From IMG/VR virus record IMGVR_UViG_3300028581_000290, positions 1-21,137 of that record: a stretch of 21,137 bases of DNA. One strand, written 5' to 3'. Under the pieces are notes generated by a model. That model had not been told where the DNA came from. It saw only the letters and a list, made by a program, of their open reading frames with translations, and searched no databases. The translations under genes and the position numbers were made by a program. Origin of the DNA: a virus. Below, one piece after another: positions 14,055 through 16,980 of the stretch (within the stretch, counting starts at the first letter, position 1; the number at the start of each line of letters is the position of its first letter).

Positions 14055-14385
14055 TTTGCACAGGCTGAGATTATACCGTGCGTTGAGCGCCTTTGCAGAG
14101 TACCCAGTCCCTTGCGAGGATGGTTGCCGCTTTGTCCACAAGAGCCATTTCTGGTCATCTTGTATCGCTCAGTGCTGCCTTGTTAAGGTGTGGCGTGTCA
14201 CCTGTCGCACACTGCTATTCGTCCTTCTATCTTCCGCCTACCTTGCGAGCAGTTCACAGTCGCTAAACCGTTACGTCTTCTTTCCGAACAACCACGTCCG
14301 CCTTGCGAGCTTCTGTGGACCACATTCTGTTGCCAGTGTGGTATTAAGCACCTTTCACAGTGTACCGGAGTAGTCTTTCGCTTTT

Positions 14386-14456
14386 GTTTCAAAACAGGGA
14401 TTGAACCTGTGCCGATTCCTTAGAAGGGAATTACTCTACCGCTGAGTTATTTGCGA
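14386..14456 (-). tRNA. tRNA-Arg-like domain (TCT) embedded in the large RNA
   Basis: Perfect anticodon arm ATTCC-CTTCTAA-GGAAT (anticodon TCT, Arg) and perfect T-arm ACAGG-TTCAATC-CCTGT. D-arm present. The acceptor TCGCAAA/TTTGAAA has two mismatches and no CCA. It is enclosed by TTCGC/GCGAA and then by CTGGAGTAG/CTACTCCGG (14472-14480 with 14365-14373), so it looks like a tRNA domain inside a larger fold rather than a free-standing gene. Confidence 0.65.
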
Positions 14457-14905
14457 ACCTATTGAGATGTGCTACTCCAGTTGCACCATATCTTGTTAGA
14501 TACAGTATACAACACACCTCCTGCTTTTGGCCTTGCGGGCTACTAAGCGTTACTTCAAGTATCCGGGTCCTAACCCTTCCACTCTTGTAATGCTACTACG
14601 CCTTTGCTTGCGGGCTCAGACAGTGTAGCTACCTGTTAACTTTCAGCATTCGTTAGTTTGGCTGAACAGTGTTTGGGCGCCAACCCTTTTACTACTCACC
14701 GACCGGCTCCGTAGCTATCCTTTCGGACACTGTTCCTAACTTACTGCCTACCGCCTTTCTACGGACGGAAGTTGCTTTCGTTTGCACGAGTCAACTTTAG
14801 TTCAGGCTTGCTTAGATGGACCATTGCTGGCGCCGGTTTATAGGAAACCCGTCTTTGGGTGCATTACTGCACTTACCCTTGTATGGACGCTAAGCCGCCC
14901 ATCTT

Positions 14906-15263: not shown

Positions 15264-15644
15264 CTAAAATTTACCAACCTTACAATCTTCATGAGTGCCC
15301 AAACACAACAGTTGTATTTCTCCAGGAGTTACTTTAAAAACTAATCCAATTCTAGATCCCATTAAATGCGCCCAAAGTGGTCTTTCGTACAAAGTGTGAT
15401 ACTGCAACATGTGAACGTTGAACTCGGGTGGATAATCTCGCATAGATGGTTGCTGATCATATTGCTCAATGAACGACAACAGTTTTTGCAGTGGTTGCAT
15501 AACTCTTGATTCTTTGCTGTACTTTTTAAAAGCACGTTTATACGCAGAAGTCTGAGATACAGTCCAACTACCTTTTTGTTCAGTTAAAACAAAAGTAGTG
15601 TAATCTGCAAGAGAGTTTGTTTCAATGATTTCAAATATTTTCAT
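15264..15644 (-). CDS. RelE/YafQ-superfamily toxin-like protein (126 aa)
   Basis: The C-terminal 95 residues follow the YafQ/RelE ribonuclease pattern: a basic helix YKRAFKKYSK (35-44), a second helix LQKLLSFIEQ (52-61), a PPEFN segment replacing the usual DHPL, then strands PLWAHLMGSRIGLVFKV (89-105) and EIQLLCLGTHEDC (109-121). H118 in GTHEDC matches the catalytic His position of YafQ (H87). This fold cuts mRNA at the ribosome; T4 RegB, which trims early mRNAs, also has a RelE-like fold (established knowledge), so a role in mRNA turnover is a reasonable inference. The first 34 residues (MKIFEIIETN...) are an extra N-terminus. Stop is TAG. AATAAATA ends four bases before the ATG and there is no RBS. 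Confidence 0.68.
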   Translation of the reverse strand: MKIFEIIETNSLADYTTFVLTEQKGSWTVSQTSAYKRAFKKYSKESRVMQPLQKLLSFIEQYDQQPSMRDYPPEFNVHMLQYHTLYERPLWAHLMGSRIGLVFKVTPGEIQLLCLGTHEDCKVGKF

Positions 15645-15648
15645 ACAA

Positions 15649-15656
15649 TATTTATT
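15649..15656 (-). promoter_or_regulatory. Late promoter AATAAATA abutting the RelE-like start
   Basis: AATAAATA, then TTGT, then ATG. The element also forms part of an AAATATT/AATATTT stem whose loop holds the start codon. Confidence 0.5.
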
Positions 15657-15661
15657 CTTAA

Positions 15662-15735
15662 TGGTGCCGGTAGAGAGAATCGAACTCCCGTCAGCTGATT
15701 ACTAATCAGCTGCTAAACCACTCAGCTATACCGGC
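15662..15735 (-). tRNA. tRNA-Thr (AGT)
   Basis: Perfect acceptor GCCGGTA/TACCGGC, A, CCA. Anticodon arm GCTGA-TTAGTAA-TCAGC gives AGT (Thr, ACU codons). T-arm GGGAG-TTCGATT-CTCTC. An A at position 34 is rare in bacterial tRNAs outside Arg(ACG). Confidence 0.85.
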
Positions 15736-15738
15736 TAA

Positions 15739-15894
15739 TTATTTGCGTACTAAAAAACAACTTTCCTCTATTCTAGATTCGTATCTATTTGGAAAAAGTT
15801 CTTCTACTACTTTATAAACATCGCCCCAGGTCGGCTCTGTTGGATACGAAAACCAGCCTTGGATTTTATTATAAAAATGTGAAATTTTACTCAT
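15739..15894 (-). CDS. Small hypothetical protein (51 aa)
   Basis: ATG at 15892-15894, stop TAA at 15739-15741. The product begins MSKISHFYNKIQGWFSYPTE and ends EESCFLVRK; it is compact, with aromatic residues and a PTWGDVYKVVEELF helix. It fills the gap between tRNA-Thr and another small gene, and codon choice looks phage-like. A weak purine stretch (AGAAAG) precedes the start. Function unknown. Confidence 0.62.
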   Translation of the reverse strand: MSKISHFYNKIQGWFSYPTEPTWGDVYKVVEELFPNRYESRIEESCFLVRK

Positions 15895-16214: not shown

Positions 16215-16787
16215 TCAATTTTCATAAAGATCTTCATAATCAAAGTCTTCATCTTCGGATAACCATTTGTCATCCGGTGCGGCTTGATCATATTGCTTGT
16301 AATAGTCCTCATTGGGCATTAACTGCCTTATGTGAGGAATTTGTAGCTGTAATATTGTAAAATGTTTCTTGCTTGGAATGTCTGTAATAAACCAAAGTGT
16401 ACCACATCCTCCGCCTGCTAAACGAATTGGTCCATGTGCCATACTACTAATAGCAGACTTTAATTTGGCACCGTGTTCAGTAATAACTCTTACAGTTTTA
16501 CGGTGTTCAAGACGTAATCTGTCTGCTGGAGTCATTACTCTAATATCGGCACAGTTCTCATTGTCGATTGTAACCACACAATCTTTGATTTTAATAGAAC
16601 CTTTGGTGTGTGTGTTATCTGGCGTTTCTTTGGTGCTCCATGGAACACTACAATTTACGTGGTTAACGTAATAGGTTTCGCCTTTGAATTTGATAACCCA
16701 CATAGGAATGGTCTCATCTTCTAAGTGTTTCTTGTTAAAATGAAACACTGCATCTCTACAAGCATATTCAATTTTGATCTATGACAT
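16215..16787 (-). CDS. Conserved-type phage protein with in-frame amber at codon 3
   Basis: A strong RBS (AAGGAG, 16794-16799) lies 6 bases before ATG 16785-16787, but the third codon is TAG (16779-16781). The same frame then stays open to a TGA at 16215-16217, reading IKIEYACRDAVFHFNKKHLE and on into MWVIKFKGETYYVNHV. The continuation looks like real protein from the codon after TAG, suggesting that the gene starts at the RBS-linked ATG (190 codons counting the amber). I recall similar MWVIK...YYVNHV proteins as unnamed in T4-like cyanophages. Without readthrough, translation could use GTG at 16746-16748 (177 aa) or the later Met of MWVIK. The C-terminus is very acidic (WLSEDEDFDYEDLYEN). 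The tRNA with anticodon CTA ends 20 bases before the RBS. Confidence 0.75.
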
Positions 16788-16818
16788 TTTATTCTCCTTG
16801 AAAGTCAATTTATAGTAA

Positions 16819-16893
16819 TGGTGCGTCCTACAGGTATCGAGCCTGCCTCCTGGGTTTTAGAAGCCCGTGACAATCCATCTTGTCCAAGGACGC
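16819..16893 (-). tRNA. Candidate amber-suppressor tRNA (anticodon CTA), alternative Arg (TCT)
   Basis: Perfect acceptor GCGTCCT/AGGACGC, A, CCA; T-arm GCAGG-CTCGATA-CCTGT. Counting 26 positions to the anticodon stem gives CGGGC-TTCTAAA-ACCCA: three central G-C pairs, flanked by two C-A mismatches, and anticodon CTA, which reads UAG. Shifting the loop to CTTCTAA (TCT, Arg) breaks the stem almost completely, so CTA is the better geometric fit. The D-arm (GGACAAGATGG) matches that of the Met(CAT) gene at 17662. Confidence 0.7.
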
Positions 16894-16900
16894 AAAAGTT

Positions 16901-16980
16901 TGGCGAGGGTGTGAGGAATCGAACCCCTAGCGGACGGTTTTGGAGACCGTTGATGGCACCAGCCAACTTTACGCGACACC
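16901..16980 (-). tRNA. tRNA-Trp (CCA), irregular acceptor
   Basis: Perfect anticodon arm ACGGT-CTCCAAA-ACCGT (CCA, Trp). T-arm about AGGGG-TTCGATT-CCTCA. Only GGTGT/ACACC pair clearly at the acceptor and the D-arm is unusual (GGC-TGGT-GCC), so folding or function may be impaired. It starts just after the stop codon of the 61-aa gene. Confidence 0.7.

Follow-up and report, generated by a model that had tools for sequence, protein, structure and literature searches.

An in-frame leader stop codon conserved in a family of phage genes, and a linked suppressor tRNA predicted to read it

The stretch of DNA analyzed here (the window; 21,137 nucleotides, positions 1 to 21,137 of the IMG/VR virus record IMGVR_UViG_3300028581_000290) encodes on its minus strand a gene with an amber codon close to its start, preceded by a tRNA gene (Table 1). 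A sequence-only reading of the window had pointed to a ribosome-binding site, an ATG, a TCA, the TAG, and 187 further codons in the same frame, and we found all of these, with the frame past the stop remaining open up to a TGA. It had further assigned the anticodon CTA to the tRNA, which lies 31 nt upstream of the gene on the same strand. The tRNA is called neither by ARAGORN with default settings nor by Rfam, because its anticodon stem contains C:A mismatches (27:43 and 31:39); with the -ps80 setting, ARAGORN recovered it with the anticodon CUA. The concern that it might be a misassigned Arg(TCT) tRNA was set aside, since the anticodon loop is UUCUAAA, with CUA central, and default settings suffice for a CUA call on the tRNAs of relatives. 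Relaxed or hand-made searches retrieved CUA tRNAs of degenerate or unusual form (those of the window, L021, L212, L214, L215, L226, and others). Position 31:39 is unpaired in 58 of 95 CUA tRNAs of related loci (C:A in 34) versus 16 of 664 other phage tRNAs, a feature that may tune suppression or evade modification or nucleases. Comparison by similarity gave these tRNAs no clear amino acid identity; they look Thr-, Lys-, and Arg-like.

Table 1. Features of the gene with the leader stop and of the adjacent tRNA in the window
Feature	Position	Strand	Remarks
Leader (AAGGAG-AATAAA-ATG-TCA-TAG-ATC...)		-	
Shine-Dalgarno sequence AAGGAG	16794..16799	-	6 nt 5' of the ATG
ATG start codon	16785..16787	-	Counterpart ATG in 109/109 contexts
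Leader stop UAG, in frame, codon 3	16779..16781	-	TAG in 109/109 distinct contexts
Gene (MS-X-IKIEYACRD...)	16215..16787	-	190 codons, TGA terminator
Conserved WW-like domain	16533..16778	-	FHFNKKHLED..PMW..K.KGETYYVNHV....PWSTKETPDN..TKGS
C-terminal part	16218..16532	-	Long form (about 185 aa) only
Suppressor tRNA, anticodon CUA, encoded CCA	16819..16893	-	ARAGORN -ps80

The domain directly past the amber resembles a WW domain in its aromatic block YYVNH and its W, and profile comparison matched it to WW domains in NEDD4L, with E values of 6e-4 and 9e-5. The best score against the Pfam WW domain (PF00397), 12.4 bits, misses the cut-off of 26.9 bits; we therefore describe the domain as WW-like only and do not call it a WW domain. 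In the AlphaFold model the residues past the amber have a mean pLDDT of 83.9, with a predicted beta strand beginning at residue 3 past the amber. A fold search of PDB with both models gave no significant match, and among viral structures the first model matched nothing but a homolog; likewise, no match was recovered in PHROGs or NCBIfam, and no homologs of the domain were found in bacterial and archaeal genomes. The C-terminal part is missing from a short form of 76 to 84 aa (L015, L017, and L219).

Scanning IMG/VR with the window protein recovered 14 relatives with 44 to 99% identity, in all of which the ATG is followed by one to three more codons, a TAG, and then the frame IEYACKDVVFHFNKKHLED or similar. 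A profile scan recovered 369 relatives, the best 80 of which were read together with 80 from a second profile. In the first scans, the TAG was present in every stand-alone relative and a CUA tRNA in nearly every one. Across the 109 distinct amber contexts of the WW-like family, the leader invariably consists of an ATG, zero to five codons, and a TAG; an SD-like sequence is present in 104 of them, and the base after the TAG is A in the window and in 103 of the 109. In five such genomes TAG terminates 2.5 to 8.4% of the genes, and hence a mere stop at this position would seldom be expected to be TAG. Differences between the sequences past the TAG fall mostly at third codon positions (4738, versus 2309 and 2026 at the others), which argues that these codons are translated. 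Thus, the UAG of the window is no error, and the frame that read-through would open is conserved. The family extends to a cultured phage, Rhizobium phage RHph_I1_18, where the gene (MSEFM-UAG-NESCREVIFHFNK) is unannotated and lies just upstream of a tRNA labeled by the depositors tRNA-Pyl(cta).

That the genome as a whole is not recoded, as the sequence-only reading had held, was borne out by a comparison of five genomes: only this gene has a conserved in-frame UAG (i.e., one shared across several partners), and genome-wide recoding was rejected on a coding fraction of 0.85 to 0.90 under the standard code. The rarity of TAG was also considered as a mark of suppression in its own right and dropped; Atu_ph07, in which we found no CUA tRNA, is equally TAG-rare, and rarity is therefore no evidence for suppression.

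We collected 112 distinct loci, 86 of them with 5 kb of sequence on each side. A CUA tRNA lies within 5 kb in 69 of these 86 at default settings, as against 16 for the next most common anticodon, and wherever a single tRNA lies within that distance (52 loci), it is without exception the CUA tRNA. The CUA tRNAs are on the strand of the gene in 86 of 86 cases, a strand that the other tRNAs at these loci also share. In G002, the CUA tRNA stands beside the gene at 83.7 kb, >200 kb from a tRNA array at 300 to 315 kb. The same-strand CUA tRNA is the sole recurrent neighbor of the amber gene; other neighbors (a peroxiredoxin-like protein, an AhpD-like protein, and a 274-aa protein) occur in 29 to 40 of the 112 loci. 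Several loci (e.g., L023, L037, and L236) have a leader stop and no suppressor tRNA in the available sequence, and several of those without a visible tRNA are short contigs. Two CUA tRNAs per genome, at times in tandem, were also observed (L347:4091-4256; XacN1 36047-36205; Phosso 171983 and 446731).

Five stand-alone homologs scattered in the tree (L208, L233, L246, L250, and L270) lack the amber and begin with an ATG at the domain. In four of these (L208, L233, L250, and L270) an upstream gene of the PTH2 type carries an amber at codon 3 to 5, and the PTH2-type gene upstream of the fused WW forms of Phosso, L284, and L285 does likewise. The fifth, L246, has kept the tRNA, and the stretch read there yielded no amber in another gene. 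Thus, where the WW gene is without an amber, the PTH2-type gene, first of the cluster, usually bears it. The PTH2 proteins of Phosso (72.9 bits) and L208 (88.9 bits) pass the Pfam cut-off of 23 bits for PF01981 (E = 3e-20 and 3.5e-25), and the annotated coding sequence of Phosso begins within the domain because of the amber. A divergent PTH2-like type (L270, L233, and BF) scores 15.8 to 20.1 bits, below that cut-off, and in L270 and BF the G-K motif found in active enzymes is absent; hence, this type may not hydrolyze peptidyl-tRNA. The gene predicted to be locked heads a set encoding a PTH2, a helical protein, and a WW-like protein. We detected no PTH2 gene in the window, whose gene is the WW-like partner, and its sole tie to PTH2 is through gene order in other phages. 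In L243, ambers occur in both types of gene (5970 and 6385), with near-identical starts: MKSEN-UAG in the WW-like one and MKAEN-UAG in the PTH2-like one.

Two scans for the PTH2 types yielded 38 loci, of which 33 have a TAG leader, 3 a TGA leader, 1 a TAA leader (L328), and 1 no leader stop (L329). Most of the 33 TAG loci have a CUA tRNA within 6 kb. The metagenomic loci L343 and L345, with TGA leaders, have a linked tRNA with the anticodon UCA, and pattern searches of their genomes recovered no CUA tRNA, the look-alikes being Arg(UCU). The third TGA leader belongs to the PTH2 gene of the cultured phage Atu_ph07; a search made after this leader was seen uncovered a UCA tRNA at 430713-430787, far from the gene. 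As L343 and L345 are related to each other, these represent perhaps two independent UGA/UCA cases. In RaK2, neither a leader stop nor a suppressor tRNA was found. The PTH2-like gene of L328 (5980-6000; MLPHT-TAA-VAEPKQ) has a TAA leader, and no UUA tRNA was found in its 33-kb contig. The switch of stop and anticodon together most strongly supports the proposed pairing of a suppressor tRNA with a stop-locked gene.

Among cultured phages, a UAG leader together with a CUA tRNA occurs in Serratia BF, the Erwinia pEa phages (MTH-UAG-NDKTW), CBB, GAP32, XbC2, ME3, and Arash, where the tRNA is annotated as Phe. Phosso, CM1, RHph_I1_18, and XacN1 also fit the predicted scheme: ORF364 of XacN1 reads MK-UAG-TIKAMKL, and its relative in CM1, a phage with a CUA tRNA, reads MK-UAG-TLNKLKN with no nearby Met start. 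The authors of the XacN1 study searched for a target of its amber tRNAs and found none (PMC5852040), a question that the amber of ORF364 answers if it is read as we predict. The authors of the Atu_ph07 study reported the UCA tRNA and named no target (PMC6102473); they and the authors of the RsoM2USA study (PMC8504454) assumed several targets for suppressor tRNAs. Thus, a conserved target can be named for the orphan suppressor tRNAs of XacN1 and Atu_ph07, the anticodon can be predicted from the leader stop, as held for Atu_ph07, and the annotation can be corrected for locked genes missed or begun too late in BF, RHph_I1_18, and Phosso. More generally, the open-access literature offered no known use for the suppressor tRNAs that some large standard-code phages carry, and a conserved target is now given.

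We found in these phages a conserved in-frame stop with a translated frame beyond it, and a matching anticodon that changes with the stop; this strongly supports read-through of the predicted tRNA-gated gene, whose product would then depend on the tRNA. The pairing, kept in phages that have diverged widely, and the anticodon changing with the stop suggest that a translation-related gene overlooked by annotation is under a lock operated by a tRNA of its own. On this comparative evidence, we regard it as highly probable that the leader stop is read through in the cell and as very likely that a single stop-locked gene is opened by the linked tRNA in phages whose genes are otherwise read with the standard code. 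Without the phage CUA tRNA, translation would halt at codon 3; once transcribed, processed, and charged by a host synthetase, the tRNA would outcompete release factor 1 at the UAG, and the protein would be made. In other phages, the lock would sit on the gene of a PTH2-type peptidyl-tRNA hydrolase adjoining the WW-like gene. The self-contained pairing of suppressor tRNA and amber gene proposed by the sequence-only reading is thus supported by conservation, linkage, and the anticodon switch; the pair may act as a timed switch, and the competition with the release factor and the dependence on charging are inferred. If it works in this manner, it would amount to a naturally occurring circuit, with a single gene controlled by one tRNA via one stop codon.

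As to purpose, PTH2 releases tRNA from stranded peptides, and a possible role for it as a rescue enzyme in jumbo phages has been raised (PMC7824862), and drop-off is frequent at the first codons (PMC10192219). Our best guess, offered tentatively and at rather less than even likelihood, is feedback control of peptidyl-tRNA rescue: suppression would let ribosomes pass stops and leave peptidyl-tRNA stranded, while one suppression event would also turn on the rescue genes. Permuted tmRNA genes directly upstream of the CUA tRNA (L004:9336-9744 and L012:8469-8849) were counted in favor of this purpose. We would lean only a little against a still more general device, in which a leader stop in a ribosome-rescue gene and its cognate suppressor tRNA form a self-tuning translation circuit; if real, it would tie the capacity for rescue to how much suppression takes place, and would have changed between UAG/CUA and UGA/UCA at least once and probably twice. 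The same tmRNA genes, along with the frequent identity of the locked gene as a peptidyl-tRNA hydrolase and the retention of the tRNA in L246 despite the loss of the amber from its WW gene, also favor a different purpose, namely, that the suppressor tRNA mainly disturbs or recodes host genes, with the leader stop as a level sensor and the locked protein limiting the damage. We consider this unlikely as the chief role; it is compatible with the main explanation and differs from it in purpose.

An account in which the tRNA is irrelevant is a leader minigene, where a di- or tripeptide ends at the UAG and ribosomes restart at a downstream codon; the sequence-only reading had raised this as an MS* peptide coupled to the GTG at 16748. 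The good SD sequence and ATG ahead of an open frame of one to six codons would suit it, as would the GTG that 33 of 56 aligned contexts share at a single position; however, in the remaining 23 a different codon for Val takes its place, and 21 of 61 contexts offer no start codon anywhere from the TAG to the domain. Moreover, the WW family never has TAA or TGA, the stops preferred by these phages, in place of the TAG; the TGA in the PTH2 family is accompanied by a UCA tRNA, the predicted strand starts a few residues past the UAG, and without exception the CUA tRNA and the gene share a strand. We therefore regard the minigene as very improbable. Slightly less credible still is the insertion of a special residue (pyrrolysine or another) required by the protein. 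In 56 of 61 contexts the UAG does keep a constant distance of 9 residues to the FHFNK that follows it, whereas the start position varies, but amber-less homologs begin with Met near the same place, the stop-to-domain distance varies in the PTH2 genes, and UAG is replaced by UGA. Likewise, the CUA tRNAs have an ordinary architecture in ARAGORN drawings, with a short variable loop, G1:C72, C2:G71, and mostly A73, and the Pyl or SeC label given by ARAGORN derives from the anticodon alone. An in-frame stop usually means sequencing error or a decaying gene, but the first of these, also listed with point mutation by the sequence-only reading, and the second are in practice already excluded by the TAG in every context, its presence in 63 rows of <85% identity that come from numerous samples as well as a cultured phage, and a frame under selection.

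Phages with genetic code 15 (crAss-like and Lak) similarly encode a CUA suppressor tRNA that makes in-frame UAG readable (PMC9523058, PMC10879173, PMC8346664). This tRNA is common to both systems; however, the code 15 phages have many ambers in many late genes, whereas the present phages use the standard code and have a single stop near the start of one gene, usually with the tRNA nearby. The orphan suppressor tRNAs of XacN1, Atu_ph07, and RsoM2USA are of the same kind, and in our analysis XacN1 and Atu_ph07 are members. As with selenocysteine and pyrrolysine, a dedicated tRNA would read a stop codon in particular genes, but here the inserted residue seems dispensable, and incidental inspection of the surroundings brought no special synthetase or signal element to notice. 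In prfB (RF2), an early in-frame stop ties the synthesis of a translation factor to the state of termination; there the mechanism is a frameshift at UGA, whereas here a dedicated tRNA would mediate read-through, and the protein made is not a release factor. The bar minigenes of phage lambda are very short open frames tied to peptidyl-tRNA hydrolase biology. They are free-standing, in contrast to the present stop, which lies within the gene of the hydrolase or its partner; Pth1 is known to act on minigene products (PMC3856088).

Finally, we noted other RNA elements in these regions. Directly upstream of the suppressor tRNA in the window, at about 16900-16973 on the minus strand, is a degenerate tRNA-like sequence with the loop CTCCAAA and the anticodon CCA (Trp), which no program calls Trp. 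A GOLLD RNA (182 bits) lies at 14062-14520 on the minus strand with a tRNA-Arg(TCT) within it at 14386-14456, and the relative L003 has its counterpart at 15354-15816. In L003, a Skipping-rope RNA (Rfam RF02924; L003:9820-9911) is situated between the amber gene and the CUA tRNA.
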